A stretch of DNA of 43,404 bases from a virus, in IMG/VR virus record IMGVR_UViG_3300045945_000008, positions 1 through 43,404 of that record; one strand, written 5' to 3'. Made by a program: the position numbers and the translations under genes. The first letter of the stretch is position 1; every line of letters starts with the position of its first letter. Below, one piece after another: positions 1 through 35,555 of this stretch. The notes under the pieces were generated by a model that had not been told where the DNA came from, searched no databases, and saw nothing but the letters and a program-made list of their open reading frames with translations.

Positions 1-127
1 TGCTTCGCGTCCCGAACCGCTACCAGACCAGACAGCAATTCATGGAAGCCTGGATGGTTTCCAAGCTGACATCGGGCAACACCTACGTTTTGAAAGAGCG
101 CGACGAGCGCAACGTGGTGGTGGCGAT
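1..127. repeat. Terminal direct repeat, left copy (contig overlap)
   Basis: Bases 1-127 are identical to 43278-43404. Both begin tgcttcgcgtcccgaaccgc and end at tggtggcgat. The repeat lies inside the portal gene and keeps its reading frame. It is therefore best read as the overlap left when a circular or circularly permuted genome is assembled, not as a biological terminal repeat. The unique unit is 43,277 bp. Confidence 0.95.
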
Positions 128-2699: not shown

Positions 2700-3143
2700 A
2701 TGGAAATCAAATGCGAGAATTGCGACAACTGGACCACCAGGAAAACAAGGGTCTATGACGACGGCACCGAGATAACGGATTTTGAGGCCGAGGACGGCAA
2801 AGGGCAGTGCTGCGTCATCAATGCGCAGACTGCCTTTGATTTTTACTGCGCCAAGTTTATGAGCGCGACCGGCGATCACGTCGAACGTCAGCTAATCACC
2901 GGCGCGCCGTGGCAGAATTTCAAGATGATCCCATGCCCCGACTGCAACGGGCGCGGCTCAGGCATCAACGGCGGCGTCTGTCAACGCTGCATGGGGACCG
3001 CCAACGTCCGGCAATACGACGACGGCTATATCGGGGAAGAAAAAACGCGGCGGCACCCCAACGAGCCGGAAGTGGCGGCGCAGGTCGATCCCGGCACCAT
3101 TCTCGCGCCGATGGAAAAGCCCAGCCTGACGAGTGAGCAGTGA
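2700..3143 (+). CDS. Cys-rich protein with DnaJ-type zinc finger motif
   Basis: A 147-residue protein. Its N-terminus has a CENCDNW motif. The middle carries CPDCNGRGSG followed by CQRCMGTANV, the paired CxxCxGxG-like arms of a DnaJ zinc-binding centre. Two arms are present instead of the usual four, so only one zinc site is likely. The J domain is absent. Such small DnaJ-finger proteins are common in phages and usually uncharacterised. The chosen ATG at 2700 follows a gagggtgtc stretch 7 bases after the preceding stop. The end overlaps the FkbM gene by 4 bp. Confidence 0.72.
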   Translation: MEIKCENCDNWTTRKTRVYDDGTEITDFEAEDGKGQCCVINAQTAFDFYCAKFMSATGDHVERQLITGAPWQNFKMIPCPDCNGRGSGINGGVCQRCMGTANVRQYDDGYIGEEKTRRHPNEPEVAAQVDPGTILAPMEKPSLTSEQ

Positions 3144-3847
3144 CCGTCCAACAACTTGAAACCATCTACGGCACCATGTTCGTGCCCGACAATGATCAGG
3201 GCCAGTATTGGTGGCTGCACAACACCGGGGCCAGCCCCGAAGATGATTTCATCGAGAAGGTCTGCGATCTGCTCGAGGACCGGCCCAAGGGCTGCGCCGT
3301 CGATGTGGGGGCAAATTTCGGTTGCTGGACATTGGCCCTGGCAAAGCACGCCCACACCGTTGTTGCCATCGAGCCGCAGGCGTGCATTCACCGGCTACTG
3401 TCGCAATCGATCAACGCCTCTCACCATCGCAACATCGAATTGATCCGCATGGCGGCGGGCGATCGTTCGGGCTTGACGCAGATCGCCGCGCTTGACATCG
3501 ACGGCGCCATGAACTTCGGCGGCATCGAACTGGACAAGAAATACTTTAACGACGGCTGGAATACGCTCGGCCATGCCAACGAAGAAGCGCCGATGGAAGC
3601 GGTGGCAATGGAGCGGCTGGACATTACGTTGATGGGATACATGGTGTCGTTCATCAAGATTGATGTGGAAGGCTACGAAATGAAAGTTCTCGAGGGCGCC
3701 AAGCATACCATCGAACGGTGTAAACCCATCCTGTTTGTCGAAATGGACCACCCGAAAGGCCACAAGGAAATGCTGCGCCAGCAGCTAATCGACTACGGTT
3801 ATGCGCTGGACGAGATGGGCGGGAATTTCCTGGGGTTGCCGTTATGA
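3140..3847 (+). CDS. FkbM-family SAM-dependent methyltransferase
   Basis: A 235-residue protein of the FkbM methyltransferase family, which typically O-methylates sugars or natural products. The SAM-binding motif I is VDVGANFGCWT at residues 54-64, followed by VVAIEPQ (acidic residue binding the ribose). The family signature FIKIDVEGYEMKVLEG is near residue 172, and a terminal LFVEMDH strand follows. The start is a GTG that overlaps the previous TGA stop (gtga), which implies translational coupling. It is followed directly by a TPR/GT9-like gene, so the likely substrate is a glycan. The acceptor is unknown. Confidence 0.88.
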   Translation: MTVQQLETIYGTMFVPDNDQGQYWWLHNTGASPEDDFIEKVCDLLEDRPKGCAVDVGANFGCWTLALAKHAHTVVAIEPQACIHRLLSQSINASHHRNIELIRMAAGDRSGLTQIAALDIDGAMNFGGIELDKKYFNDGWNTLGHANEEAPMEAVAMERLDITLMGYMVSFIKIDVEGYEMKVLEGAKHTIERCKPILFVEMDHPKGHKEMLRQQLIDYGYALDEMGGNFLGLPL

Positions 3848-5457
3848 CCCGACGCATCGAGCGGATGATCGAACTGGCGCGTGCCCACATGGACAACAAT
3901 GGGGTCAACGCGGCGGGCGCATACTATCGCATGGTGCTGAAGGAAACCGAACCGCCGAAGTCTGGAATTGAAAAGGTGGCGCGCGGCGAAGCCTGCATGT
4001 GGTTTGCCCGCCGCGCGGTGGCGCACAGTTGCTTTGGCGAGGCGACCGATTGGTATCGCAAGGCGACGGACGCTGACCCGCTTGCCGTCGAGTATCGGCT
4101 TGAGTATTGCCGCAAGGCGCTGATCCCGATGGACATGCTGAAGAACGCGCGCATCGAGGCCGAGCGCGCCACGCGCATCGATCCTAAGAGCAAGGAGGCA
4201 TGGGCCACGCTTGGCATGATGGAACATGCGCTTGGCAATGCCGCAGCAGCCATCGCGGCGTTTGACCGGCAACTTGAATTGGCACCGGACGATGACATCG
4301 CGCGCCTGGACCGAGCGACGATTGCGCTGGATACGGCGGATTATAAAACCGTCAGGACAATGGTGCAGACCGTCAACGGCAAATACTATGGCGACGCATT
4401 GAACTGTCTCGCCATGTGCGCCTACCGCGAAGGCCAGCATGAGAAGGCAATCGAACTATACGACCGCGCCATCGAGCATCGCTGCCAAGACCCGGAATTA
4501 GCGACGTGGAACAAGTCGCTGGCACAGCATTCGATTGGCGACTACGAAAACGGCTGGCAGTCGCACGAAGCGCGAGGCAGGCAGCAGACAGACGGTGCCA
4601 TGCGACTGATCATGAACAGGTTCGCTAGGCCGATGTGGAATAACGAACCCCCGCCTGCGCGCCTGCACCTGCATCAGGAAATGGGATTTGGCGACGCCAT
4701 CGCCATGCTGCGCTATGTGCCTCTGCTGATCGAGCGCGGATATCAGGTCTGCATCGAGGTCAACGAAAGTCTTGTCAGTCTAGTGCAGCGGTCATTTCCA
4801 CAAGCCAATGTCGTTGCGAAGGCGGCTGACTATCCCGGCGCAATCGGCATTCCGCCTTTCGACTACCATGTGCCGATGCTGTCGTTGCCCGCTATCTTCG
4901 GAACGACCATCGACACGGTGCCATGGAGCGGGCCGTATCTGAAATCTGAAATGCGGTATGTGCGCGGATCACAACTGCGCGTCGGGCTGTGCTGGTCATC
5001 CGGCATCCGTAGAGGCGAACATATTTGGCTTGAAGAATACGGCAAGCGTAAATCGATCAATAATTTTGCCGAAATACGTCCGATATTGCATTCGATTGAT
5101 GCCGAATTTGTTTCGCTACATTTGAGCGGCGGCGACGAATTGCTGATTGACGTTCTCGACAACACTTCAACATGGGACGACACCGCTGCATTGATGGCCA
5201 GCCTTGATCTTGTCATCACCGTCGACACGTCGGTGGCGCATCTGGCCGGTGCAATGGGCAAGCCGACCTGGATCATGATGCACACAGAAGGTTCATGGCA
5301 CTGGATGGCGGAACGGCCGGGCGCGATGTGGAATGAACGGTCGCCGTGGTATCCGTCCGCCAGATTGTTCAGGCAGAAAAAACCGCATGAATGGGGCGAG
5401 GTGATCGAACAGGTTAGCGCCGCATTGGCGGAATTTCGCAAGGACAAGGCAGCCTAG
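3844..5457 (+). CDS. TPR repeat protein fused to a GT9 (heptosyltransferase-like) domain
   Basis: A 537-residue two-part protein. Residues about 1-250 are TPR helices (for example AWATLGMMEHALGNAAAAIA). Residues about 275-537 are a GT-B fold like ADP-heptose:LPS heptosyltransferases (GT9). The GT part has a GFGDAIAMLRYVPLL start motif, a RVGLCWSSG motif near residue 380, and the donor-site motif TVDTSVAHLAGAMGKPTW near residue 459. TPR-GT fusions of this type often modify surface glycans or proteins. The ATG overlaps the FkbM stop. The role in the phage is inferred: sugar transfer to virion proteins or host envelope. Confidence 0.85.
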   Translation: MTRRIERMIELARAHMDNNGVNAAGAYYRMVLKETEPPKSGIEKVARGEACMWFARRAVAHSCFGEATDWYRKATDADPLAVEYRLEYCRKALIPMDMLKNARIEAERATRIDPKSKEAWATLGMMEHALGNAAAAIAAFDRQLELAPDDDIARLDRATIALDTADYKTVRTMVQTVNGKYYGDALNCLAMCAYREGQHEKAIELYDRAIEHRCQDPELATWNKSLAQHSIGDYENGWQSHEARGRQQTDGAMRLIMNRFARPMWNNEPPPARLHLHQEMGFGDAIAMLRYVPLLIERGYQVCIEVNESLVSLVQRSFPQANVVAKAADYPGAIGIPPFDYHVPMLSLPAIFGTTIDTVPWSGPYLKSEMRYVRGSQLRVGLCWSSGIRRGEHIWLEEYGKRKSINNFAEIRPILHSIDAEFVSLHLSGGDELLIDVLDNTSTWDDTAALMASLDLVITVDTSVAHLAGAMGKPTWIMMHTEGSWHWMAERPGAMWNERSPWYPSARLFRQKKPHEWGEVIEQVSAALAEFRKDKAA

Positions 5458-6755
5458 TGTTCGAGGTCGATTGCCTCAGGGTCGTGCAGATCCTGGCGCC
5501 AATCCCGCCGTGGTGGTTCACCGATTCTGCGGTTGATCTTGATTTCCAGAACAACAGGCTATGGGAACCTATAGGCGGCGAGGATACGACGCCGGATTTC
5601 ACGGCATATCTGTCATGTTCGCGCGCATCGACCGGCTACGCCAAGACCGCAGACGGCACGTTGGTGAACTTCGGCAACAACGCGCTGCGCATCACGGACC
5701 TCGGATTGCTGGTGGAGGATGCGCGGACTAACTTTGTATTTCGAAGCCAAGAACTCGGCAACGCAGTTTGGAGCACAACTTTTACAAGTGCTACTACTGA
5801 TGCAACGACTGCGCCAGACGGCACCAGCACGGTAGAAAAATTGATCGCAACTTCTAGCGGCGGCGCAGACCAACACCGCATTCTTCAATCTGACGTCTCC
5901 TCAGATGGATTTAACGCCAAAGTGTTTTCAGTATTTTGCAAGGCTGCGGAGAAAACCGCCGTTGGTCTTAGCATCAGCGACCGTGCGGGTGGCACCGTCT
6001 ACGCCGACTTTGATTTGACAAACGGACTCACCGGGCACACCGCTCAGACTGGAAGCTGGACAGGGGTTGGTTCAAGCATCGAAGCATTCGGCGACGGCTG
6101 GTATCGGTGCTCCGTGACAGGAGTAAAAGGGGCGGGCGCTCTGGGGTGTGAGGTATTCATTAATACGCTGGACAGCTACGGCGGCGCTTTAGCTTGGAAT
6201 TCGCCCGGCAGCGTTGGTGTCTACGCTTGGGGTGCACAATTCGAGGAAGCTAGTTTCGCTTCCTCCTACATCCCCACCACGTCCGCCAGCGCCACGAGGG
6301 CGACGGATGTTGTGACATTTACTGGTTCTGTCAATTCAATAATCAATGGCACCGCAGCGTCAGCCCTTTTGGATGTAACGTGCAACATTGATTCGAACAT
6401 TGACAATATGCGGATACTTGGGAGTTCAGATGGCTTTGGGATATTGATCGGTATTACTAACGGAAATGATTTACAGGCAAATACGGGTACGGGGCAACTT
6501 GTCGATGGCAGTTTTTCATTACAGTCACCGCATAAAGCAGCATGTTCTTACATAACTGCTGGAGGTGGACGGTCGCTGGTTCTTGATGGCGGAACGGTTG
6601 CGACTGACAGCAATGCATCAGGCGCCTCTGGAAATGCGACATTAGGAAAAGGCGCATCCGGCGGTGGAACGCCCTCTTGGTTTAACTTTAGGCGCTTTGT
6701 TGGCTGGTCCTCCCGTCTTGCCGACGCCACGCTGCAATCGAGGACGGCCCCTTGA
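5457..6755 (+). CDS. Phage fibre/spike protein with lectin-like (CBM/LamG-like) domains
   Basis: A 432-residue protein that begins with a GTG overlapping the TAG stop of the preceding gene (tagtg). The middle shows the pattern of phage spike-fibre domains: EDARTNFVFRSQELGNAVW, a GDGWYRCSVTG strand, and YIPTTSASATRATDVV near residue 275. This is a well-known motif of head-spike or tail-fibre carbohydrate-binding domains. The C-terminal 130 residues look like a concanavalin/LamG fold (GFGILIGITNG, RFVGWSSRLADAT). It is probably a virion surface protein that binds or displays glycans. Codon use is AT-richer in places than in its neighbours. Confidence 0.75.
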   Translation: MFEVDCLRVVQILAPIPPWWFTDSAVDLDFQNNRLWEPIGGEDTTPDFTAYLSCSRASTGYAKTADGTLVNFGNNALRITDLGLLVEDARTNFVFRSQELGNAVWSTTFTSATTDATTAPDGTSTVEKLIATSSGGADQHRILQSDVSSDGFNAKVFSVFCKAAEKTAVGLSISDRAGGTVYADFDLTNGLTGHTAQTGSWTGVGSSIEAFGDGWYRCSVTGVKGAGALGCEVFINTLDSYGGALAWNSPGSVGVYAWGAQFEEASFASSYIPTTSASATRATDVVTFTGSVNSIINGTAASALLDVTCNIDSNIDNMRILGSSDGFGILIGITNGNDLQANTGTGQLVDGSFSLQSPHKAACSYITAGGGRSLVLDGGTVATDSNASGASGNATLGKGASGGGTPSWFNFRRFVGWSSRLADATLQSRTAP

Positions 6756-7153: not shown

Positions 7154-9958
7154 ATGGCCACCAAGCGAATCTTCATAACGGCTACCGGGGCCGGCACGTT
7201 TACAATTCCAAGTGACTGGACCAGTACCAACTCGATTGAAGTTATCGGCGGCGGGGCAGGCGGCGGTACCGGAGCGGGCGCGGCCAGGGGTGGTGGTGGC
7301 GGCGGACAATACCGCATCGCAAGCAATGTCGGCGGTCTTAGCGGCACCATAGACCTTTCCGTTGGCACAGGCGGCGGGGCACAGACTGCAGGCGGCAATA
7401 CCTGGTGGAACGGAACGACGTTCGGCGGTGCTACGCTATCGGCGCAGGGCGGACAGACGACGACAACCGCCACGGCTGGCGTGGGCGGTTCGACAGGAAC
7501 CGGCGGCAGCGGCTCCAACGGTGGCGCGGCTGGTGCGGGCGGCAACGCTTTAACTGGCGGCGGCGGTGGCGGCGCAAGCGGTCCCGGTGGTGTTGGTGGC
7601 ACGGGCGGCAAAGGCGATGACACCACGGCTGGCGCGGATTTCGGCGGCGGCGGAGGGTCAGGCGCTGGCACCAGCACAGGCGGCGGTGCCGGAACGCAAG
7701 GCAGCACAAGCGCGGGCGTGGGTGGCACCAATGCCAACGGCGGCGGATCGGGTGGCAATGGTGGTTCAGGCGCGGGCGTTACCCCGACTGCTGCCACCAG
7801 CATGTGGACATCGACACATCTGCCCGATACGACCACGCCATCTGTGGTCAGTATTTCGACTGGCGGTGGCGGTGGCGGTGGCGGCTCGGCATCGGGCGCT
7901 GGCGGCAACGGGTCTAACTACGGTGCTGGTGGCGGTGGCGCAGGCAACGGAACCGGGGGTTCCGGCACGCAGGGCGTCATCATCATCACCTACGTGGTAC
8001 CAGATATTGCCTGGTTCGAAACGTCATCCATAATTGAACAGCCGCGCCAGCCGAATCTAAATGGGCGCCGTGCATCCGCTTTAAGATCGAAAAGCCAGTT
8101 TGCCGCCTTCGATCTCAAGCCGTTCGACAACTGGATACAACCAGTCCAGCCACCGCATCCACGGCGGGAAAAGCTCGGATCGGTCGTAAAGGGCATTGAC
8201 GCCATCGAACGGCCCTATGTATTCGTGGCGCCGCCATCGCCGGCCTGGCAATGGGAGCCGATCCTGCTCTCGCCGCGGCGCCCATACCGGCGGCAGATCA
8301 CGGGCGGCGATCCCGGCAATGCCAGCCTCTATTCGATCTGGCGCAATTGGGGTTGGCAGGTTTCGGCGCCGACCGTTGACAAGCGGCCGCGGCAAATTCC
8401 GTCCTCGGTCATGTGGGACGACGGAACGCAGGCGCCGTTGGTTGTCACGCAACTGATTCGCTATGCCGACAACTTCGATGAAATATTCATCAGCAAGAAA
8501 CGGCGGCAGACCTATTCCGCCGTCATGTGGGATGACGGGACACAGGGACAACTTGAAACCTGGCGCAACTACGGATGGCAGATTGAACCGCCGACGCTGC
8601 CGAGGCCGAAGTCCAATCGCGGCGCGTTCCTCGAGGGCATCGACGGGGTCGAGCGGCCGTATGTGGTGCAGGTTGCGGTCAATTACTTCGACACCGTTGA
8701 TGACTTTTTCGTCCAGCGCAATCGCGTCGTTCATTCGGCGATCATGTGGGATGACGGTGCCACGTCGCCATTGGTCAATTTCTTTCCGTTCGGTTGGCCC
8801 ATTCAGGCATGGCAACCACCGCAGCCGAAATGGATGGAGAAATTCGGCACCATCGCGCCGAAGGACGATGGCATCTACCGGCCAAAGGATTTGGGCCTGC
8901 AGACCGGGGATTTCCCGTGGCAAGAATCGCCTTGGGTCTACCCGCGAATGCGCTACGCCAAATGGGGCGGCATCGCACCGCGCGAAGACGGCATCGAATT
9001 GCCATTCAGCTTCTTCCGCGATCACGGTTTTGCGGTACAACCCTGGCAACCGCCGCACCCGGCCTATGAAAAACACTTTGCCGCCTTTGCACCTGGCGAG
9101 CCGGCGATTGATGAAAACCCATTCAGGCAATTCTTCCCGCATGGCTGGCCTATTCAACCCTGGCAACCACCACATCCGAGGCCGGAACGGTGGGGATCGA
9201 TCGCGCCGAAGTCAGACGGCACCGAAGGTCAGAAACCATTTGGATTACAGACCGGCGACTTCAGATGGATGGAAACGCCGTGGGTTTACCCGCGTGCCGC
9301 CACGCGACTGCGGGCGCAGACCGCGGCGATCGCACGAGGCATCGACGGCGCCGACACGCTGCGCCAATTCTTCCCGTTCGGGTGGTTTGTGCAGCCCTGG
9401 CAACCGCCCAACCCGCGGCCGGAAAAGTGGGGCGCCGTTGCCATCGGCGAGGACGGAATTGAAAAGCCATTCGTTCCACCGTTTGTCTTTGTCTATTCGC
9501 CTGATCTTGACGAAACCATCGTGCGGCGCCGTCCGCGCATGGTGCCGGATGATAACACTTGGGATGGCTGGGAACGGTTCACCTTATGGCGCAACGCCGG
9601 ATGGGAAGTTCAGCCTTGGCAACCGCCGCACCGCGGCACCGAACACCGCATTGGCGCCATCCTTGAGGGCATCGACGGCATTGAGGGACGGTTTGAGCGG
9701 TTCTTCAATTTCGGCTGGCCGATCCAGCCCTGGCAACCGCCGCACCGCGGGCAGGAATGGCACGGCGCCGGACTGCTGCCAGCCTGGTTTATTGATGGCA
9801 CGTTCTTCCCGATCGAGCCATTCGTGCCGCCGCCGGCGATCTTGCCGCGCAATCCGACGCACCTTCGGACGCGCAGCGGCTTTGAACTTAGTCAGCGCGG
9901 TGCAAGCCTCGACCGCCGTGGCAGCGGCAGGAATATCCGTGGCAACAACCAGAGTTAG
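7154..9958 (+). CDS. Large virion protein: glycine-rich domain plus WQPP repeat array
   Basis: A 934-residue protein whose ATG follows the previous stop directly. Residues about 25-275 form a glycine-rich domain (runs such as GGGAGGGTGAGAARGGGGGG) like the Gly-rich regions of phage tail fibres. Residues about 295-900 are tandem imperfect repeats of roughly 40 residues centred on QPWQPPHPRPEKWG, followed by IAP-x-DGIE and often a FFPFGWPIQ segment. At least six clear WQPP copies and several degraded ones are visible. The C-terminus is basic. No enzymatic motif is present. Its size and place suggest a virion surface or fibre protein, possibly an acceptor for the neighbouring glycosyltransferases. 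Confidence 0.72.
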   Translation: MATKRIFITATGAGTFTIPSDWTSTNSIEVIGGGAGGGTGAGAARGGGGGGQYRIASNVGGLSGTIDLSVGTGGGAQTAGGNTWWNGTTFGGATLSAQGGQTTTTATAGVGGSTGTGGSGSNGGAAGAGGNALTGGGGGGASGPGGVGGTGGKGDDTTAGADFGGGGGSGAGTSTGGGAGTQGSTSAGVGGTNANGGGSGGNGGSGAGVTPTAATSMWTSTHLPDTTTPSVVSISTGGGGGGGGSASGAGGNGSNYGAGGGGAGNGTGGSGTQGVIIITYVVPDIAWFETSSIIEQPRQPNLNGRRASALRSKSQFAAFDLKPFDNWIQPVQPPHPRREKLGSVVKGIDAIERPYVFVAPPSPAWQWEPILLSPRRPYRRQITGGDPGNASLYSIWRNWGWQVSAPTVDKRPRQIPSSVMWDDGTQAPLVVTQLIRYADNFDEIFISKKRRQTYSAVMWDDGTQGQLETWRNYGWQIEPPTLPRPKSNRGAFLEGIDGVERPYVVQVAVNYFDTVDDFFVQRNRVVHSAIMWDDGATSPLVNFFPFGWPIQAWQPPQPKWMEKFGTIAPKDDGIYRPKDLGLQTGDFPWQESPWVYPRMRYAKWGGIAPREDGIELPFSFFRDHGFAVQPWQPPHPAYEKHFAAFAPGEPAIDENPFRQFFPHGWPIQPWQPPHPRPERWGSIAPKSDGTEGQKPFGLQTGDFRWMETPWVYPRAATRLRAQTAAIARGIDGADTLRQFFPFGWFVQPWQPPNPRPEKWGAVAIGEDGIEKPFVPPFVFVYSPDLDETIVRRRPRMVPDDNTWDGWERFTLWRNAGWEVQPWQPPHRGTEHRIGAILEGIDGIEGRFERFFNFGWPIQPWQPPHRGQEWHGAGLLPAWFIDGTFFPIEPFVPPPAILPRNPTHLRTRSGFELSQRGASLDRRGSGRNIRGNNQS

Positions 9959-9961
9959 ATC

Positions 9962-10567
9962 ATGGCAGCACTCGTAAGAGTAACGGCACCGACCACCACG
10001 CCGATTTCACTGACGGAAGTGAAGGAGCATTTGCGCGTTGACGGCACCGACCAGGATTCAATTATTCAAGCCTATCTCGATGCGGCCACCGCTTTCGTTG
10101 ACGGGGAATGGGGCTGGCTCGGCCGCGCCTTGGTCGAGCAGACCTGGCGGCTGACGATCGACACGTTCCCCTGCGCCGAAATCAAGATCCCGCTGCCGCC
10201 ACTGATCTCGGTCAACAGCGTGATTTATTTCGATGCCGCCGGCGATCCGCAGACGATGGTCGAGGATACCGATTATTTTGTCGATGACCAAAGCGAGCCG
10301 GGCTGGATCACGCCGATGACTACCTGGCCTGCAACGCTCGACGCCATCAACAGCGTTCAGATCGAATTTGTCGCGGGCTATCAATCGACCTCAAGTCCGG
10401 TTGATCCGGCCGAGAATGTGCCGGCCAGTATCAAGCAGGCCATGCTGTTGATGATTACCGACTGGATGGAACACCGGCAAAACATCATCACCGAATCGGT
10501 CGCCTTGCCGCCCTATGCAAGCCAGATCCTGTTGCGCCCGTATCGCGTCGATGTGGGATTTGCATGA
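9962..10567 (+). CDS. Head-tail connector protein (phiE125 gp8 / HK97 gp6-like)
   Basis: A 201-residue protein of the phiE125 gp8 / HK97 gp6 head-tail connector type. The N-terminus has the helix motif ISLTEVKEHLRVDGTDQD, followed by IIQAYLDAATAFVDGEWG. The middle contains a strand-rich segment (LPPLISVNSVIYFDAAG), and the C-terminus has PASIKQAMLLMITDWMEHRQ. These proteins form the ring below the portal. The next structural gene of the same block, the head-closure protein, is 5.8 kb away, separated by the glycan cassette. The ATG lies four bases after the preceding stop. Confidence 0.85.
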   Translation: MAALVRVTAPTTTPISLTEVKEHLRVDGTDQDSIIQAYLDAATAFVDGEWGWLGRALVEQTWRLTIDTFPCAEIKIPLPPLISVNSVIYFDAAGDPQTMVEDTDYFVDDQSEPGWITPMTTWPATLDAINSVQIEFVAGYQSTSSPVDPAENVPASIKQAMLLMITDWMEHRQNIITESVALPPYASQILLRPYRVDVGFA

Positions 10568-11217
10568 AGGGCGAACGGCCAGCCTGGTGGCCGGATTGGG
10601 CCGGTCAGTATGTGGCGATCATCGGCGGAGGCCCTTCGCTCAAACGCAGCGAAGTGGACATGCTCAAAGGCAGGATACGCACGGTCGCGATCAATGAAGC
10701 CTATCAACTGCTATCGCCCGACGTGCTTTACTCCTGCGACTTCAAATGGTGGCAATTGCGCTATAACAACGTCAAGAACATGCAATGCCTGAAGGTAACG
10801 CAGGACGTGCAGGCTGCAGGACATTTTCAGGGATTGCAGCGCATCAGATTGCGTTCAGGCGCGAACGGCAATTACTGCATGCCGTTTCTCATGGACGAAT
10901 GGGGCGAAGTCGGCAGCGGTCAGGGATCGGGATTCCAGGTCGTCAACTGGATGGCGCAGATGGCGGTGAAAGGAATGGCCCTGCTCGGCTTTGATGGTTG
11001 CGAAGTCAACGGCCAGATCCATTGGCACGGCCGTCACGGCGAAGGGCTGAACAACCCAAATAACAGCACCTTCATCGGATGGAAGAACTGGATGGAAAAC
11101 GCTGCGCCGAAGCTGCAGGAATTGAATATAGATATGGTCAACTGCTCGGCGATCTCGGCAATCGGATGCTTTCCTAAGATAACCGTAGAGGACACGTTGA
11201 GGCGATGGAACCTATAA
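10564..11217 (+). CDS. GGGPSL-motif glycan-associated protein (DUF115-like/GT-like)
   Basis: A 217-residue protein opening with YVAIIGGGPSLKRSEVDML, the nucleotide-binding loop seen in DUF115/MptE-like and some sialyltransferase-like phage proteins. It continues with TVAINEAYQL and a later GSGQGSGFQVVNWM and KGMALLGFDGCEVNG segment. The pattern resembles Rossmann-fold glycan enzymes. An exact family cannot be fixed without a profile search. It is the first gene of the glycan cassette, overlapping the connector stop (atga) and the next GT gene by 13 bp, so it is probably co-translated with them. Confidence 0.65.
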   Translation: MKGERPAWWPDWAGQYVAIIGGGPSLKRSEVDMLKGRIRTVAINEAYQLLSPDVLYSCDFKWWQLRYNNVKNMQCLKVTQDVQAAGHFQGLQRIRLRSGANGNYCMPFLMDEWGEVGSGQGSGFQVVNWMAQMAVKGMALLGFDGCEVNGQIHWHGRHGEGLNNPNNSTFIGWKNWMENAAPKLQELNIDMVNCSAISAIGCFPKITVEDTLRRWNL

Positions 11218-12014
11218 GAATATTTGTCGGCTGTCCCGCCAACGGGGAAGATGCCGAGGCGCAGGCGATGCTGGAATATACATTGCGCAAGCATCATCCC
11301 GACAACGATCTGGAAATCACCTGGATGATGCTTTCCAGAGACAAGGATTCGCCGTGGTACTCGAGCGCGACGTCGGGCTGGAATACGCAACTGTGGGCCA
11401 CTCCGTTTTCGGTGTTTCGCTGGTCGATCCCGCACATCGTCGGCACCGGCAAGGCGATTTACATGGACGTCGACATGGTGGCGCTCGCTGACATTGCCGA
11501 ACTATGGAATCAGCCTTTTCCGCCGGGCAAGGCGGTGCTGTGGAAGGACGAAAAGAATTCGTGCGTCATGCTGATGGATTGCGCGCCGGTCAAAGCCGCG
11601 CTGCCGCGGTTCGAGGACATGCGCCGCAAGCTAGGCGGGTATAGCGTCTATAGAGATATTCACGTCCGGCCATTGGCGGCTAAATTCAAGAACAATTGGA
11701 ACTGCCTGGATGGCGAGAACTACGCCACACTGACCGATCCCGATATCAAGATCCTGCATTTTACTCGTGTGGAAAGCCAGCCGCATTTGAAATATGCGCT
11801 TCCGCGCCTGCGGGCGCAGGGCAAGAAACATTGGAATAGATGGACGCTGCGACGCGATGAGTCGATGCCACATGTGCGGGCCGACGTTGCCCCGCTGGTC
11901 GAGACGATCTGGCAGAACGCGCAGGAAGCCGGCTACACGGCGGCGAAGTACGAAGCAATGGCGTCCAACTTCGGCAACTATGACGCGGTTCGCGGCGGAC
12001 ATCGGGCGGCGTAG
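11205..12014 (+). CDS. GT-A glycosyltransferase (GT8-like)
   Basis: A 269-residue GT-A-fold glycosyltransferase. The N-terminal strand RIFVGCPANGEDAEAQAM leads into WATPFSVFRWSIPHIVG, typical of GT8-like retaining enzymes. The metal-binding DxD motif is YMDVDMVALADI near residue 87. The acceptor side has NSCVMLMDC and ILHFTRVESQPHLKY near the C-terminus. Transfers a sugar from a nucleotide-sugar donor to an unknown acceptor. Overlaps the previous gene by 13 bp and shares one base with the next start (tagtg). Confidence 0.8.
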   Translation: MEPIRIFVGCPANGEDAEAQAMLEYTLRKHHPDNDLEITWMMLSRDKDSPWYSSATSGWNTQLWATPFSVFRWSIPHIVGTGKAIYMDVDMVALADIAELWNQPFPPGKAVLWKDEKNSCVMLMDCAPVKAALPRFEDMRRKLGGYSVYRDIHVRPLAAKFKNNWNCLDGENYATLTDPDIKILHFTRVESQPHLKYALPRLRAQGKKHWNRWTLRRDESMPHVRADVAPLVETIWQNAQEAGYTAAKYEAMASNFGNYDAVRGGHRAA

Positions 12015-12802
12015 TGGGTGCCGGGGACGACATAATTGCCACGGGTTTGGCGCGAGGTTTCAAGGCTGACGGAAAGCTTGCTGCATTCGGGGACGGCCAC
12101 AAGATTCTTTGGGGACCGTTCAGCGAAGAAATGTTCAGGCACAACCCGAACATCGCACAACCGGGACTTGAGCATCGACCGGAGTTGAAATGGATTCACC
12201 ATTACAAGGGTGCGCGGCTTTACAACAAGCACGCCAATGGTCGATGGACCTGGAATTATGATTTCAAGGTCAAGCCCGGCGAATTCTTCTTCAACGAGGT
12301 CGAGCAGCACGTCATCGCGCACCGGCGCTCGATTGGTCCGTTTATCGTGGTCGAGCCGAACGTGGAGTGGCACAAGCAGGTGGCGCCGAACAAGGATTGG
12401 GGTGCGTCTAACTACAACGAACTGACGGCGCGGTTTATCAGGCATGGACACAGGGTGGTGCAGTTCATTCACAAGAACAGCCGCACCCGGCTGCGTGACG
12501 TGACGACTCTGCAATTCCACAAATTCCGCGAGGCGATTGCCACGCTGTCGCTGGCCAAACTCTACATCGGGCCGGAAGGCGGCATGCACCACGCGGCGGC
12601 GGCGGTTGGCATTCCTGCTGTCGTGATCATGGGCGGTTTCATCCCGCCGCAGGTCGTCGGCTATGATGGTCATGTAAACTTAACCGGCGGCGCCGAGGCG
12701 TGCGGCACCATTGGACCGTGCGAACACTGCAAGAAGGCAATGGCAAAAATATCGGTGGAGGAAGTGTGGGATTCGGCGACGCGATTATGGCCTCTGCACT
12801 AG
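12014..12802 (+). CDS. GT9-like glycosyltransferase, copy A
   Basis: A 262-residue GT-B protein related to GT9 heptosyltransferases. It begins at a GTG that overlaps the preceding TAG. The N-terminal loop VGAGDDIIATGLARG corresponds to the GxGD motif that anchors the acceptor domain. FIVVEPNVEW begins the second domain, and the donor-site motif GPEGGMHHAAAAVGIPAVV is near residue 180. A Cys cluster (CGTIGPCEHC) sits near the C-terminus. It aligns along its length with the next gene, including the start, so the two arose by tandem duplication. Confidence 0.8.
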   Translation: MGAGDDIIATGLARGFKADGKLAAFGDGHKILWGPFSEEMFRHNPNIAQPGLEHRPELKWIHHYKGARLYNKHANGRWTWNYDFKVKPGEFFFNEVEQHVIAHRRSIGPFIVVEPNVEWHKQVAPNKDWGASNYNELTARFIRHGHRVVQFIHKNSRTRLRDVTTLQFHKFREAIATLSLAKLYIGPEGGMHHAAAAVGIPAVVIMGGFIPPQVVGYDGHVNLTGGAEACGTIGPCEHCKKAMAKISVEEVWDSATRLWPLH

Positions 12803-13638
12803 CGCGCGGACTGCATGCGCAGGGCAAGCTTGCAGCGTTCCATGCCCCAGGTCCGAAGCGCAAGGATGGGACGTTTGAGGCGGCGACCTACCCACTAAAA
12901 ATAAAATGGACGGGGTATTGTGACGATATATTCCTGCACAATCCGAACATCGCGCGGCCTGGCCAGGAAGATCAGGACAACATTATTTGGCACCTACACT
13001 ACAAAAAGGTTTTTAGCTATTGCCGCTACGACGGTGCACAGCGCCGCTATATCTGGAAACCGGATTTCCAGGCACAGCCGGGCGAATTCTTCTTCACCGC
13101 TGACGAACTCGATCTGCCGGTGCCGAGGCCATTCATCGTGGTTGAGCCTAACCTTGCCTGGCAACGGCAGGTCAATCATAACAAGGATTGGGGCGAGGGC
13201 AGGTTCGAGGCGCTGGCGGTCAAGCTGATGAAGGCGGGCCACCAGGTCGTGCAGTGCATCCACGATAATTCGCGGCGCAGGATTCGCGGCGCGGTGCAGA
13301 TCCCGACACCGCAATTCCATCAGTCGGCGGCGATCATGTCGCAGGCCAATCTCGTCATTGCGCCGGAAGGTGCCAACCATCACGCTGCCGCGGCGCTCGC
13401 CATTCCTGCGGTCATTGTGTGGGGCGACTGGTCGCCGCACGGCATGGGCTATCCTGGTCAAATGAAACTATCCGGCAAGGGACCGCTGCAAGCCTGCGGC
13501 AATACGTTCAACTGCCCGCATTGCCGAACGGTCATGGACTCAATAACGGTGGATGAGGTTTACGATGGCGCGATTCAACGGCTGCAAGGTGCTGCAGGTC
13601 TTGAGCGAATTCGACCAGTTCTGCAAAGTGCTGGTTGA
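12766..13638 (+). CDS. GT9-like glycosyltransferase, copy B
   Basis: A 290-residue paralogue of the preceding gene. The GTG at 12766 was chosen because its product begins VGFGDAIMASALARG, aligning residue by residue with copy A, and because ggtggagga lies just before it. Shared blocks are HNPNIA, PGEFFF, FIVVEPN, NHNKDWG and the donor motif APEGANHHAAAALAIPAVI. The end keeps the Cys cluster (CGNTFNCPHC). It overlaps copy A by 37 bp and the next methyltransferase by 74 bp. Likely transfers a sugar, with donor and acceptor unknown. Confidence 0.8.
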   Translation: MGFGDAIMASALARGLHAQGKLAAFHAPGPKRKDGTFEAATYPLKIKWTGYCDDIFLHNPNIARPGQEDQDNIIWHLHYKKVFSYCRYDGAQRRYIWKPDFQAQPGEFFFTADELDLPVPRPFIVVEPNLAWQRQVNHNKDWGEGRFEALAVKLMKAGHQVVQCIHDNSRRRIRGAVQIPTPQFHQSAAIMSQANLVIAPEGANHHAAAALAIPAVIVWGDWSPHGMGYPGQMKLSGKGPLQACGNTFNCPHCRTVMDSITVDEVYDGAIQRLQGAAGLERIRPVLQSAG

Positions 13639-14146
13639 TGAAAAGGTCCGCTCATACCTCGAGATAGGTTGCTGGTCGGGCGGCACGATCCAGATGGTCG
13701 CGGCCAATGTCCTGCCGCGCGGTTCGCGCATCGTCGCGGTCGATAAGCCATTCAAGCCGACAAAGGAATTTCATCTGCGGCAGACCATCAACGGGCTATG
13801 CGCAAAGGGCTACGACGCTAAGGTATTCATCGGTGACAGCACCGACCCCAAGATCATCGCCGCCGCGCAGGCGTGCGGTCCCTATGACGCGGTATTCATC
13901 GACGGTGATCACCGGCTGGAATATGTCAAAAGCGATTGGGAGCATTACGGCACAATGGGACGCATCGTCGGCTTCCACGACATCGCCCGCGATCTGCCGG
14001 CCGACGCGCAAGGCGGGCCGCACGAGGTCGCTTCGTTCTGGCGCGATTTCAAGAACGGATACCGGCACGAGGAATTCATCAGCGAGTCGAGCCGCACCGG
14101 CGCCAAGGGTGGCGCCTTCGGCATAGGAGTGGTGTGGCGTGTATAA
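13565..14146 (+). CDS. Class I SAM methyltransferase (CmcI/Methyltransf_24-like), copy A
   Basis: A 193-residue Rossmann methyltransferase. The ATG at 13565 is preferred over 13553 because it aligns with the start of the paralogue and has gagg upstream. Motif I is YLEIGCWSGGTIQM, followed by RIVAVDKPF. The metal/substrate motif is VFIDGDHRLEYVKSDW, and GRIVGFHDI follows. This pattern fits the cephalosporin-hydroxylase-like CmcI and Methyltransf_24 group. It overlaps the previous GT gene by 74 bp and the next copy by 8 bp. A small-molecule or sugar methyl acceptor is inferred from the setting. Confidence 0.8.
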   Translation: MARFNGCKVLQVLSEFDQFCKVLVDEKVRSYLEIGCWSGGTIQMVAANVLPRGSRIVAVDKPFKPTKEFHLRQTINGLCAKGYDAKVFIGDSTDPKIIAAAQACGPYDAVFIDGDHRLEYVKSDWEHYGTMGRIVGFHDIARDLPADAQGGPHEVASFWRDFKNGYRHEEFISESSRTGAKGGAFGIGVVWRV

Positions 14147-14711
14147 AATCAACGGGCACAAGATCCTGCAGTATCCCGGCGAACTTGAGCGGCTGATCGC
14201 GATATTCCGAGACAACAACGTGCGGTCTTATCTCGAGGTCGGCTGTAAATATGGTGGCTCTCTGTGGGAGATTGCCTGCGCTTTGCCGAAGGGATCGCGC
14301 ATCGTGGCGATCGACCTGATGCAATACCAGGATCAGACCACGCATCTGCGCAACAGCGCCAACGATCTCACGGCGCGCGGCTATGATGTAACCCTGTTGC
14401 CGGGCGATTCCACCGATCCGAAAAAGGTCGAAACCATCCGCCCGCTGGGACCGTTCGACGCTTGCCTGATCGATGCTAACCATACGCTGCCCTACGTCAC
14501 GAAGGATTGGGAGAATTACGGGCCGATGTGCCGCATCGTGGCGTTCCATGACATTAACTGGTACCGGCCGCCGGATTGGCCTGCCAACCACCCAGATCGC
14601 AAATATCAGATCGACGTGCCGCAATTCTGGAATGGATTAAAGGGCGGATACCGCCATGTGGAAATAAAGCTGGACAAGCAGGACAACGGGATTGGCGTGC
14701 TATGGCGCTGA
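14139..14711 (+). CDS. Class I SAM methyltransferase, copy B
   Basis: A 190-residue paralogue of the preceding gene, starting at a GTG with aggag nine bases upstream. Motif I is SYLEVGCKYGGSLWE. The DGDH box of copy A is here LIDANH, so the second acidic residue is changed to Asn, while YVTKDWENYG and RIVAFHDINW are kept. The two copies align from the first residue (MYKINGHKIL against MARFNGCKVL), so a tandem duplication is clear. The altered box may change metal binding or substrate. Confidence 0.8.
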   Translation: MYKINGHKILQYPGELERLIAIFRDNNVRSYLEVGCKYGGSLWEIACALPKGSRIVAIDLMQYQDQTTHLRNSANDLTARGYDVTLLPGDSTDPKKVETIRPLGPFDACLIDANHTLPYVTKDWENYGPMCRIVAFHDINWYRPPDWPANHPDRKYQIDVPQFWNGLKGGYRHVEIKLDKQDNGIGVLWR

Positions 14712-15385
14712 ACGTCATCACCTGGCTGTGGGGCAACAAGTACGGCCCTAAGGACGTGACCCGGCTTGCCAATGCCGTGAAGGAAAACCTGCAATGCGAG
14801 CATCGGTTTTTCCTGTTCACGGATCGCAAGTATTTTGGCCTGCCTGCGCATGTGAAGGTGGCGACCATAAGCGATCCGGCTCTATGCCAGCGCAATTGTT
14901 TCTGCCGGTTGCGCATGTTCGATCCGATCTGGCAGGGCTGGTATGGCATGGACGGCAAGATCATATCCATCGATCTCGACGCCATCATCACCGGACAGAT
15001 TGACGAACTGTTTGCCGGCGACGCCACATTCAAGATCCTCAAGGGCGCCAATGCCAGCAATCCGAATCCGTTCAACGCCAGCGTGATGATGTTGAGGTCA
15101 GGTTGTCACGCCGACGTATGGGCAGACTTTTCCGTCGAGGCCGCAAACAAGATTCCGTTTCACGAATTCCCCGACGACCAGGGTTGGATCCATCACAAGT
15201 TGCCGGACGCTGACGGCTGGCCGGTTGGCAGTGCGTCAGGCATCTACGCATTCGAAAAACCAGGCTGGCCCGGAGGTCATGACCTGCCAACGGACGCACG
15301 GATCGTCGCCTTCTTCGGTTGGCGCAAGCCAAGCAACTTTATGTATATCCCGTGGATCAAAAAGTATTGGAAGACTGCCGCATAA
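14702..15385 (+). CDS. GT-A glycosyltransferase
   Basis: A 227-residue GT-A protein starting at an ATG that overlaps the previous stop by 10 bp. It opens NVITWLWGNKYGPKDV and has HRFFLFTDR, typical of small phage and bacterial GT-A enzymes. The DxD motif is KIISIDLDAIITGQID near residue 85. FNASVMMLRSG and DQGWIHHKL follow, then the C-terminal GWRKPSNFMYIPW. Likely transfers a sugar from a nucleotide-sugar. No membrane segment. The next gene overlaps its 3' end. Confidence 0.8.
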   Translation: MALNVITWLWGNKYGPKDVTRLANAVKENLQCEHRFFLFTDRKYFGLPAHVKVATISDPALCQRNCFCRLRMFDPIWQGWYGMDGKIISIDLDAIITGQIDELFAGDATFKILKGANASNPNPFNASVMMLRSGCHADVWADFSVEAANKIPFHEFPDDQGWIHHKLPDADGWPVGSASGIYAFEKPGWPGGHDLPTDARIVAFFGWRKPSNFMYIPWIKKYWKTAA

Positions 15386-16197
15386 ACCCGCGCGAGGTGG
15401 CCTTTTTCTTTCCGGCCAACCTTACCAAGACATTCGCCGCCAAGGTCAAGCTGTTCATGCGGATGGCGGACTATATCGAAGGCGCTGGCGGGCGCGTCAT
15501 CCGCGGTGATATCGATATGCTCGCGCGCGCGGCCGATGATGGCGCGATCCCCGTCATCGGCTGCACACCGCAGCTGCGCCCGCTGATCGAGCGCTGGTGT
15601 GCAAGCGGGCGGACATGGGTCTATTGGGACAGGGGATATTTCCGGCGCGGCTATTACCTGACCTGGCTGCCGAAAGGCGATGATGGCGGCTATTACCGCT
15701 GGCACATCAACCGCCCGCAGATGGGCGAAATCTACGACGTGCCCGACGACCGCTGGAAACGGCTGCAGATCGACAACCAACTGCGCCCTTGGAACAAGGA
15801 CGGCAAATATATCGTCATCATCGACACGCCGTCTGACTACTGGAACCTGTGGGACAACATCGGCTGGGTGAAGAACACCGCCGAATATCTGCGGAGCATA
15901 ACCAAACGTGAAATCAGAATCCGCGACAAAGAAAGTAAGATTCCGCTATATGCCGAACTTGAGCGGGCGCATTGCCTGGTGGCGCATGGTTCGAACGCTG
16001 CAATTGAATCTGTGGTCTTTGGCTGCCCGGTATTTGTAGATCGTTCGAGCGCGGCTGCCCTGGTTGGGCAAACCGATTTTGCCAGCATTGAAACGCCGGT
16101 CTATCCCGAACGACAACCTTGGCTCAATTCAATCTCTTATTGCCAGTTCACAGAAAGGGAAATGATGGACGGCACCCTTTGGAAGATGATTCGCTGA
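15319..16197 (+). CDS. Glycan-associated protein, GT-B-like (capsule-synthesis-type)
   Basis: A protein of up to 292 residues. The start is uncertain: TTG at 15319, GTG at 15352 or TTG at 15367, none with a clear ribosome site. The overlap with the previous gene makes a later start more likely. The C-terminal half contains RAHCLVAHGSNAAIESVVFG followed by CPVFVDRSSAAALVGQTD. This is the donor-loop pattern seen in capsular polysaccharide and glycerophosphotransferase-type GT-B enzymes. It closes the glycan cassette and overlaps the following small gene by one base. Confidence 0.68.
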   Translation: MAQAKQLYVYPVDQKVLEDCRINPREVAFFFPANLTKTFAAKVKLFMRMADYIEGAGGRVIRGDIDMLARAADDGAIPVIGCTPQLRPLIERWCASGRTWVYWDRGYFRRGYYLTWLPKGDDGGYYRWHINRPQMGEIYDVPDDRWKRLQIDNQLRPWNKDGKYIVIIDTPSDYWNLWDNIGWVKNTAEYLRSITKREIRIRDKESKIPLYAELERAHCLVAHGSNAAIESVVFGCPVFVDRSSAAALVGQTDFASIETPVYPERQPWLNSISYCQFTEREMMDGTLWKMIR

Positions 16198-16403
16198 TGC
16201 CGTGGGTCAGGTTTACCAAGAACTTCGACTGGCAACCGCACAACGCCCGCTGGATGATTTCATATAAGGCCGGGTCGGTGTTGCTTGTGAAGCAAGTTGT
16301 GGCAAACAATGCAATCCGCGAGGGCAAGGCGGAACCAATTGAAAGACCTATAAATGCCGATAGCAGTCGCAGGCGATCTCAGGTATCGGGTCGGGTTCTA
16401 TAG
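16197..16403 (+). CDS. Small phage protein next to head-closure gene
   Basis: A 68-residue basic protein whose ATG overlaps the previous TGA. It reads MPWVRFTKNFDWQPHNARWM, followed by YKAGSVLLV and AIREGKA. Short proteins of this pattern are common before the head-tail adaptor gene in siphoviruses. The function is unknown. The gene overlaps the next by 50 bp, which is long but common in this operon. Confidence 0.65.
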   Translation: MPWVRFTKNFDWQPHNARWMISYKAGSVLLVKQVVANNAIREGKAEPIERPINADSSRRRSQVSGRVL

Positions 16404-16731
16404 CCGCGACACCGGGGCAGGCTCGCCTGACGTGCCGGATTACGGCAGCGGGCCGGGTTACTCGGACACGGCGGCTTTCATTGTGTGGGCTGATATCACG
16501 CCAAGGCTGGGCGGCGAGGCGATCCTGGCAGCGCGGTTGACCGGAAAGAACTTCGCCAACATCACCGTCCGTCAAAGCAGCAACACCGATCAGGTGGACA
16601 CCGATTGGAAATGCAAGGACGAGGGCACGGGTGAGATTTACAATATCCGATCTGTCATCGACCCGCACCAAGGGGACCACAGTCACGGCCTGTTCTGGGA
16701 AATGCTGTGTGAGAAAGGCGTGGCGGTCTGA
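16354..16731 (+). CDS. Head-tail adaptor / head-closure protein (SPP1 gp16-like)
   Basis: A 125-residue protein of the head-tail joining family (SPP1 gp16-like, PF05521 type). The N-terminal MPIAVAGDLRYRVGFYSRDT is typical, with VWADITPRLGGEAILAARL in the middle and the strand TDWKCKDEGTGEIYNIRSVI near the end. It closes the portal channel after packaging. The next three genes are the tail completion, terminator and tube proteins. This is the standard order and resumes the head-tail block interrupted by the glycan cassette. Confidence 0.85.
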   Translation: MPIAVAGDLRYRVGFYSRDTGAGSPDVPDYGSGPGYSDTAAFIVWADITPRLGGEAILAARLTGKNFANITVRQSSNTDQVDTDWKCKDEGTGEIYNIRSVIDPHQGDHSHGLFWEMLCEKGVAV

Positions 16732-29179: not shown

Positions 29180-29918
29180 GATCCGCCTCCATTATCGCCC
29201 GCCCGATGATTTCCGGGATTTGCGGGATGACGGAATTTCCGACGGCGTGAAGTCTGTCCAGCCTTCCTGGTAGCCCATCATCCATTCTGCGAAGGAGGGG
29301 TTGAGGCCAACAATTTCCTCGCTCGAACGGAGCATCGCAGACTGACTGCAAATCCTCCTCGCCACGCAGCCACCACGATCCAGGCGGGCTAAAATTCTTG
29401 CCTGAGACCAGTCGCGGCCCTCGCGTGCCGACGGGGTAGGCAATAATCCAGATACGGTCGCGCTCGTGAATGGCACCGACATCGCTGGCGCGTATGCAAT
29501 GCCATTCCGTGTCATAGCCGATCTCGGCCAGGTCTCCGAGAATTTCGCCCAATCCTCGACAAAGGAGCGCTGCCACGTTCTCCACGATGACGTAGTCCGG
29601 TCGTACCAGGCGAATGGTTCTAAGAAACTCCCGCCAGAGTCCTGAGCGGGCTCCGGCAAGTCCGGCGCCTGAACCGGCAAGGCTGATATCCTGACAAGGG
29701 AATCCACCGGAGATTGCATCAACCTCAATTCCGTCTGTTGCGAGGCGTTCGGCGGTAAGTGTTGTAATGTCGTCGTAGCAGGGGACGTGGGGCCAGTGCT
29801 TTGCGAGGACTCGCCTGCAGAACGGATCAATTTCACAGAACGCAACGGTTTGGAACCCGGCCCTTTCGAGGCCGAGGGAGAACCCGCCGATGCCCGAGAA
29901 CAGGTCAAGCAGTCTCAT
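29130..29918 (-). CDS. C5 cytosine-specific DNA methyltransferase
   Basis: A 262-residue DNA (cytosine-5) methyltransferase starting at the ATG at 29918. Motif I is LLDLFSGIGGFSLG. The catalytic Cys75 sits in SGGFPCQDIS (motif IV), ENV is at residues 113-115 (motif VI), HERDRIW is motif VIII, and HAVGNSVIPQ is motif X. The target-recognition region is short, so it is a small Dcm-type enzyme. No cognate restriction endonuclease is seen next to it. It may protect phage DNA from host restriction. It overlaps the integrase stop by four bases. Confidence 0.92.
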   Translation of the reverse strand: MRLLDLFSGIGGFSLGLERAGFQTVAFCEIDPFCRRVLAKHWPHVPCYDDITTLTAERLATDGIEVDAISGGFPCQDISLAGSGAGLAGARSGLWREFLRTIRLVRPDYVIVENVAALLCRGLGEILGDLAEIGYDTEWHCIRASDVGAIHERDRIWIIAYPVGTRGPRLVSGKNFSPPGSWWLRGEEDLQSVCDAPFERGNCWPQPLLRRMDDGLPGRLDRLHAVGNSVIPQIPEIIGRAIMEADRLDTQAEQSSIGTDSF

Positions 29919-30964
29919 CCCGTTTTTTTCGTCTGGTCCGCCGCTTCCCATCGCCTGATCGCATTCCTGGCCATCTGTTTTCGCGCCGCGCGCCTGGTGT
30001 AGTGCAGCGCCATCTTGGCCGAGCGATGTCCGGTCACCGCCATGATCTCATCGATAGAGCAACCGGCTTCTGCCAATGCCATCGCGGCATTCTTGCGCAG
30101 GCCGTGGAATGAATAGCCCCTGATGCCGAGCCGCTGCAGCTGATTGCGCACCAGGCGGGCCAGGGAAGCCGGGTCATAAGGTTTGCCGCGCTCGCCTGTA
30201 AGAACATATTCACCGCGCCTTGGCATTGTCTGTAAGACTGCGGCTAAGGCTTTGTGACACGGCACCATCACATACTCGCCGGTTTTCTGCTGCACGACTT
30301 CGATCGTCTCGCCGTCGAACTGCGACCATTTCATCTTCACCACATCGGATCGGCGCTGCCCGGTGTAGCGGCCCAGCATCACGGCAAGGCGCAGATGCGC
30401 CGGCGCGCTGGCATCGAAGGCGGCGAAGATGTCATCGGTCCATGGCTGGCGTTCGTTGGCTTCGCTGCGGTCATGCACGCGGGTGACGCCGACGGTGGGA
30501 TTGGCCTCGAGGCCGTCAAGGTTCAGCCGATCGTCGGCGAACTGCCACAGCACCGACAGGCGGCTGATGGCGCTGTCGGCAACCGATGCGGTATGCGCCT
30601 GGTGAAAGTGGTTGCGGATCATCTTGACGTGCTTGGCCTTGAGATCGCGCAACAGTCCGGCACCGAATCTTTCCTTGAGCTCGTCGAAGATGCGGCGATC
30701 GGCGCGGACTGTTGACGGGGCGCGGCCTCTGAATTCGTCGGTTGAGACATAACGATCGATGACCCAGCCAAGGCTGCCGTTGAGGAAAGCGACCTTGTGC
30801 GGATCAAAGCCGAACTTTTCCTTGGCGTTGGCGGCTTCGTAGGCGGCAAGAAAGCCCGGCGATCCTGGTGCCGGCAGCGCGATGGCGGGGAAACCCTTGC
30901 GGCGAAAGTAATAGCGCGCCTTGCCGTGGCGATCGGTATAGGCTTTCACATACCGCAGCTTCAT
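29915..30964 (-). CDS. int: Tyrosine-type site-specific integrase
   Basis: A 349-residue tyrosine recombinase that integrates and excises the phage DNA. Residues 1-175 hold the arm- and core-binding domains. The catalytic set is visible: Arg204 in LGRYTGQRRSD, a Lys near 227, His287 and Arg290 in SFHGLRKNA, His313 in VTGHRSAKM, and Tyr322 in LHYTRR. The start is the ATG at 30964, overlapping the excisionase-like stop by 4 bp. The attachment site was not identified in this window. Confidence 0.93.
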   Translation of the reverse strand: MKLRYVKAYTDRHGKARYYFRRKGFPAIALPAPGSPGFLAAYEAANAKEKFGFDPHKVAFLNGSLGWVIDRYVSTDEFRGRAPSTVRADRRIFDELKERFGAGLLRDLKAKHVKMIRNHFHQAHTASVADSAISRLSVLWQFADDRLNLDGLEANPTVGVTRVHDRSEANERQPWTDDIFAAFDASAPAHLRLAVMLGRYTGQRRSDVVKMKWSQFDGETIEVVQQKTGEYVMVPCHKALAAVLQTMPRRGEYVLTGERGKPYDPASLARLVRNQLQRLGIRGYSFHGLRKNAAMALAEAGCSIDEIMAVTGHRSAKMALHYTRRAARKQMARNAIRRWEAADQTKKTG

Positions 30965-35526: not shown

Positions 35527-35555
35527 CCGCGTCAAACGCCGCGAAAGGCGCGCCG

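Follow-up and report, generated by a model that had tools for sequence, protein, structure and literature searches.

The virus record IMGVR_UViG_3300045945_000008 from IMG/VR, analysed here over its full 43,404 nucleotides (the window), is a complete circular temperate siphovirus genome that carries a cassette of eight late-strand glycan-enzyme genes between its head–tail connector and head-closure genes, each gene overlapping or abutting the next. A sequence-only reading of the same DNA had proposed eight overlapping, co-directional glycan genes between these two head genes; all eight are present, and their identity as glycan enzymes is borne out by Pfam and PHROG profiles and by predicted folds. 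Their placement in the late head block, also part of that reading, is confirmed, and promoter-like sites in the cassette region are not above chance. The cassette and its boundaries are as follows.

9962–10567, plus strand: head–tail connector, the left boundary of the cassette (phrog_442, E = 3e-29; PF05135)
10564–11217, plus strand: GGGPSL (GPSL) protein, sialyltransferase-like (GT42-like), the first cassette gene (phrog_4603 “alpha-2,3-sialyltransferase”, E = 4e-35)
11205–12014, plus strand: GT8-like GT-A glycosyltransferase with a DxD motif (PF01501, E = 0.003, sub-threshold)
12014–12802, plus strand: GT9 (heptosyltransferase-family) enzyme A (PF01075, E = 5e-9)
c. 12766–13638, plus strand: GT9 enzyme B, a paralogue of A (PF01075, E = 4e-8)
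c. 13565–14146, plus strand: S-adenosylmethionine (SAM)-dependent O-methyltransferase A (Methyltransf_24, PF13578, E = 2e-9)
14139–14711, plus strand: SAM-dependent O-methyltransferase B (Methyltransf_24, PF13578, E = 1e-6; RMNT_CmcI, PF04989, E = 7e-6)
c. 14702–15385, plus strand: GT-A glycosyltransferase 2 (GTA2), with invariant DxD residues D91/D93 (phrog_1962, E = 8e-16)
c. 15319–16197, plus strand: GT-B transferase with a KpsC/WbbB-like predicted fold (AlphaFold2 and Foldseek)
16354–16731, plus strand: head-closure (head completion) gene, the right boundary (PF05521, E = 2e-11; phrog_25)

Four of these genes have start codons internal to the listed open reading frames (ORFs): GTA2 at 14702, methyltransferase A at about 13565, the GT-B gene within 15319–15385, and GT9 B, whose ORF opens at 12700 and whose likely GTG start, placed by homology and alignment, is at 12766.

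The sequence-only reading had expected the genes to fall into glycosyltransferase and methyltransferase families, and profile searches returned this in part: the two GT9 enzymes and the two Methyltransf_24 enzymes lie above the cut-off, and phrog_4603 and phrog_1962 are matched, while the GT8-like protein is sub-threshold and the GT-B protein has no sequence family. The GT9 enzymes score 36.2 and 33.4 bits against PF01075, for which the Pfam cut-off is 22, and the GT9 profile matches the lipopolysaccharide (LPS) heptosyltransferase structures 1psw and 2gt1. The Methyltransf_24 and RMNT_CmcI matches of the methyltransferases also exceed the curated cut-off; methyltransferase B matches the rhamnosyl O-methyltransferases (RMNT_CmcI), and its profile additionally matches O-methyltransferase structures. 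Within each of the two paralogue pairs, GT9 A/B and methyltransferase A/B, the proteins are 46% identical. The GT8-like protein scores 17.6 bits against PF01501, under the cut-off of 24.3; 15 of 24 relatives match that family at E ≤ 0.01 (best 8e-6), the DxD aspartates D88 and D90 are invariant in every aligned relative, and the family profile matches the GT8 structure 5gvv (E = 1.4e-3). The DxD aspartates of GTA2 are invariant in all aligned relatives, including PmgQ of phage P1.

The first and last enzymes of the cassette were modelled from alignments built from window and contig sequences only. The AlphaFold2 model of GPSL has a predicted local distance difference test score (pLDDT) of 93, and its top PDB fold in Foldseek is the CstII sialyltransferase 1ro8 (E = 1.4e-3, probability 1.00), with a modest query template-modelling score (TMq) of 0.53; the GPSL profile has no meaningful match among PDB sequences. 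His153 is invariant and Trp154 nearly so among 26 relatives. For the GT-B protein (pLDDT 89), the best matches among solved folds are KpsC (8fux, E = 1e-4) and WbbB (5fa1, E = 7e-4), both with probability 1.00 and TM scores of 0.4–0.5, and the model also matches capsule-synthesis-like viral proteins in BFVD. The GT-B protein gave no match to solved-structure sequences, and its only Pfam result was DUF6716, below the cut-off; since sequence searches gave no family, its placement as a putative KpsC/WbbB-like transferase derives from the comparison of folds.

Such enzymes might in principle act on DNA instead of on glycans, as many phage glycosyltransferases do according to work cited in PMC12619734, and the window phage does encode a C5 cytosine methyltransferase. 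The closest resemblances of the enzymes, however, are to O-methyltransferases and to transferases of LPS and capsule, the cassette is linked to head genes and not to replication genes, and hydroxymethylase, TET/JBP-like and base-kinase genes were not found among the scanned proteins, which did not include every small ORF. Glycosylation of phage DNA bases is thus hardly credible as the role of the cassette.

Relatives of the cassette were gathered mainly through the GT-B gene, and the loci, numbered here with the prefix L, were mapped with profiles of the window genes; because a set obtained in this way is not independent, the counts below are descriptions and not probabilities. The GT-B family scan returned 152 relatives in viral contigs, of which 80 were kept, and five in genome contigs. 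All five genome contigs are alphaproteobacterial (two from Mesorhizobium and one each from Bradyrhizobium, Phenylobacterium and Hyphomonadaceae), and the gene is single-copy in each of the four genomes checked. An even draw of 385 alphaproteobacterial genomes added just three with GT-B copies, all of them diverged; two of the three belong to a cassette, one of these in a clear prophage. The scarcity of copies in cellular genomes gives the appearance of a phage family and not a common cellular one. A scan with the single GPSL sequence returned one short locus. The sequence-only reading had called the arrangement unusual, which holds for named phages, among which it is rare, and does not hold for environmental alphaproteobacterial phages, among which it is common; the literature searches found no description of this cassette.

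Across these loci the genes recur in the order GPSL–GT8–(methyltransferase)–GT9–MT24–GTA2–GT-B, and the main departure of the window from it is the presence of a paralogue each of GT9 and of the methyltransferase. In the 51 loci of at least 11 kb, nearly all of which were retrieved through GT-B, GTA2 is present in 50, GT9 in 49, MT24 in 47, GT8 in 44, and GPSL in 38. Accessory genes in the relatives are of sugar-tailoring type: extra methyltransferases in 44 loci, TylF-type genes in 12, and a hexapeptide acyltransferase in 11. In an independent prophage, the interval between the major capsid and connector genes holds an older variant made up of GT9, FkbM, GT8 and a pair of GT-B genes.

The order of the genes is retained, whereas the site is not. 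The cassette occupies the connector/head-closure interval in the window type, the capsid/portal interval in the Mesorhizobium type, the portal/connector interval after a portal-side collagen-like gene, and, in a Bradyrhizobium prophage, the portal/scaffold interval of an unrelated phage, with a terminase, portal and scaffold from other PHROG families. On the GT-B tree, these four sites require at least eight placement changes, compared with 24.6 when labels are shuffled. In cassette-free relatives that have a connector, the connector and head-closure genes usually lie next to each other, some 10 bp apart at most, and this arrangement is the empty site. Throughout these moves the cassette has stayed with virion genes: 85 of 93 loci have, on one side of GT-B at least, a virion gene recognised by the profiles of the window genes as the closest structural gene mapped. 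Among the eight loci that do not, three (L050, L110 and L122) carry a phrog_145 portal, with the scaffold confirmed in L050; L121 represents the L050 prophage a second time; L095 has a member of the portal-like family according to BLAST; tail genes are present in L083; and the remaining two are L060, a 5-kb contig, and L114.

A selfish or neutral block that enters late operons without serving the virion would be expected to behave partly like this, as the cassette relocates, its copy numbers vary, and homing-type endonuclease-like genes are present in a few copies of the cassette. The enzyme set, order and catalytic residues are nevertheless kept at about 50% identity across dozens of phages, a degree of conservation that calls for selection for activity and makes such an island very improbable. 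The endonuclease-like proteins inside the cassette, of GIY-YIG/HNH type by eye, are found at 8513–9430 of L118 and 9057–10001 of L124, and such genes perhaps aid the spread of the cassette.

For a unit that relocates across sites and phage types yet remains with head genes, a role in particle assembly is the best explanation, and the cassette is likely to be a late-expressed virion-glycosylation pathway that produces an O-methylated oligosaccharide. The main alternative is modification of the host envelope, in which infected cells or lysogens would have their LPS, capsule or O-chain altered by the enzymes, leading to lysogenic conversion or superinfection exclusion. The phage is temperate, with an integrase, and the GT8, GT9 and KpsC-like folds are typical of LPS and capsule enzymes; a predicted LPS glycosyltransferase of a Sinorhizobium prophage has been proposed to modify the host envelope (PMC5537653). 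However, unlike a gtr-type lysogenic-conversion cluster, the window cassette contains no membrane flippase or polyprenol-linked transferase by Pfam match, its proteins have no clear transmembrane segment (highest 19-residue hydropathy, 1.78), and it lies within the late head operon and not beside the integrase or att site, the integrase (29915–30964) being about 14 kb away on the opposite strand. The linkage to virion genes outlasts several relocations, and in C1, a jumbo phage of Caulobacter, a related set adjoins a tail fibre. As the association with head genes extends over dozens of phages, decoration of the virion is favoured over conversion of the host surface, which is considered unlikely.

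If the cassette glycosylates virions, its cytoplasmic transferases would build, during assembly, a short oligosaccharide on at least one head-associated protein from host nucleotide sugars, and the methyltransferases would then O-methylate the chain. CMP-activated sugars are the donors of CstII and of the KpsC/WbbB group, and ADP-heptose is that of the GT9 family, which makes the following a reasonable guess: the GT9 enzymes would probably take ADP-heptose-like donors, and CMP-ulosonic or nonulosonic acids, CMP-Kdo for example, would probably be used by the sialyltransferase-like enzyme and the KpsC-like one. The GT-A enzymes would probably use UDP-hexoses. The resulting sugars might serve adsorption, particle stability or shielding. 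The suggestion of the sequence-only reading that virions are decorated thus gains from the glycan enzymes, the late head block and the comparative linkage to head genes, with the acceptor, sugars and purpose remaining conjectural; its further suggestion of antibody blocking finds no specific support, and the hosts identified are Alphaproteobacteria from soil and water.

Candidate acceptors, and two further enzymes that may act on them, lie upstream of the connector.

3140–3847, plus strand: FkbM-family methyltransferase (PF05050, E = 3e-18)
3844–5457, plus strand: fusion of a TPR domain (TPR_2, E = 2e-10) and a GT9-like domain (PF01075, E = 5e-5), a candidate protein glycosyltransferase
5457–6755, plus strand: virion structural protein (phrog_5939 “tail protein”, E = 4e-43), 22% Ser/Thr by composition, a candidate acceptor
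7154–9958, plus strand: long protein with a Gly/Ser/Thr-rich N-terminus and Trp/Pro repeats of about 38 residues, a candidate head fibre and acceptor

The FkbM and TPR–GT9 genes are as previously described from the sequence. PDB matches of the TPR–GT9 protein include the TPRs of O-GlcNAc transferase, and a scan of viral contigs with it returned zero relatives, so that at this level of sensitivity the 3140–5457 pair stands without close relatives. The pair probably acts on neighbouring surface proteins in the same manner as the cassette. The likeliest acceptors would be the long repeat proteins beside the cassette, represented in the window by the 7154–9958 product (autocorrelation at period 38 of 0.135, compared with 0.076 expected), and the 5457–6755 protein.

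In several relatives, a long Gly/Ala/Ser/Thr protein with 20-residue repeats (approximately 16–26% Ser + Thr) stands just before the connector or GPSL gene. Proteins of this class are encoded at L003:1–2553, L033:1099–2583, L054:2434–5292, L062:5133–6563, L070:2–2668, L084:1–3165, and L119:1872–4091; they lie mostly beside the connector or cassette, have a self-match at period 20 of 0.23–0.33 compared with 0.11–0.15 expected, and are possibly head fibres. A second class, with Trp/Pro repeats of 30–38 residues (DWPLP or PWQPP), occurs in or near the same slot and comprises the window protein at 7154–9958, L055:897–3992, L077:2211–5288, L087:1316–4126, and L117:3820–6024. The Gly-rich, lectin-containing gp76 of phage phiCbK has been proposed as a head filament (PMC3556154), and may serve as a useful analogy only for the repeat proteins adjacent to the cassette. 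A universal repeat-protein acceptor was rejected: in many loci (e.g., L037, L102, L106, and L124), the connector and cassette abut the portal-side gene with no repeat protein between them, and other head proteins therefore have to be considered as acceptors.

Several points weigh against virion glycosylation. The virion glycan is a prediction from the genes, no acceptor or glycosylation motif has been identified, repeat proteins are missing from the slot in many cassette-bearing loci, and the late-operon position would equally suit enzymes that change the host envelope towards the end of infection. In phage P1, pmgO and pmgQ encode homologues of GPSL and GTA2; unlike the window cassette, they comprise two enzymes only, lie outside a head block and are annotated as putative morphogenetic genes; both were non-essential in a CRISPRi screen (PMC10695390), a result that does not exclude decoration. 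A more specific proposal holds that a mobile virion glycan island, conserved in a diverse range of alphaproteobacterial phages, decorates long head fibres made of repeat proteins with an O-methylated oligosaccharide that resembles the LPS core (heptose/Kdo type), forming a glycoprotein coat comparable to bacterial surface glycosylation; it is put forward tentatively and is on balance doubtful.

Virion glycosylation itself is known from mycobacteriophages. In Che8 and Rita, sugars have been demonstrated on capsid and tail tube proteins (Freeman et al. 2023, as reported in PMC11256854 and PMC12619734), and in Maravista the genes for the transferases are located close to the 3′ end of the genome. 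The window phage likewise encodes its own glycosyltransferases, and virion-protein sugars would be the common outcome; whereas virion glycans have been demonstrated in mycobacteriophages, those of the window phage are predicted from its genes, and its system differs in having eight to ten enzymes, including sugar O-methyltransferases, within the head operon of an alphaproteobacterial phage. Mycobacteriophages are absent from the tblastn matches of GTA2, GT-B and GT9 A, and none is named for GPSL; homology to their transferases is not required, as convergent systems are possible. A multi-enzyme, mobile island in the head block would be a new form of this trait.

Closer counterparts are found in other phages. 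Tetraselmis viridis virus S20 (NC_020840) has GPSL-type proteins, a methyltransferase, and a GTA2 homologue between capsid and head closure, but in another gene order, with further enzymes and at only 26–31% identity; no study of the function of this late-region set was found in the literature searched. In the Caulobacter jumbo phages C1 and CcrColossus, a long gene on the tail-fibre side is followed immediately by consecutive homologues of GPSL, GT-B and GT9 and a gene annotated as FkbM, but the set adjoins the tail fibre instead of lying between the connector and head closure, and GT8 and GTA2 homologues were not detected there. The KpsC/WbbB Kdo-transferases provide the best solved fold for the GT-B gene, which is only about 10% identical to them and has no sequence match. 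A custom sugar chain probably covers the particles of the viruses that bear the cassette. If so, phage virion glycosylation would be a multi-step trait conserved, beyond mycobacteriophages, in a large group of alphaproteobacterial phages that spans rhizobia, Caulobacterales, and soil and water hosts; a complete candidate pathway would lie within one operon, and host prophages exist in sequenced Mesorhizobium and Bradyrhizobium strains.

The identity of the first and last 127 bases of the window (1–127 and 43278–43404) indicates that the genome is circularly closed and about 43.3 kb long, the portal gene being split by the arbitrary contig ends. Genes recognised in the window include those for a tyrosine integrase, RecE/RecT, terminase, a fused protease–capsid, portal, connector, head closure, neck, terminator, tail tube, tape measure, and tail tip. 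A homologue of the cell-cycle regulator GcrA is encoded at 35490–36011 (PF07750, E = 9e-18); phiCbK-like phages are reported to carry GcrA homologues too (PMC3556154), and the presence of one in the window suggests an alphaproteobacterial host. A NusG-family transcription factor (PF02357, E = 1e-20) is encoded at 38070–38609, near the terminase. Directly after the portal, a collagen-like protein is encoded at 1096–1908; where cassette phages include that part of the genome, it is almost always kept, and in relatives its gene is often immediately 5′ of the GPSL gene.

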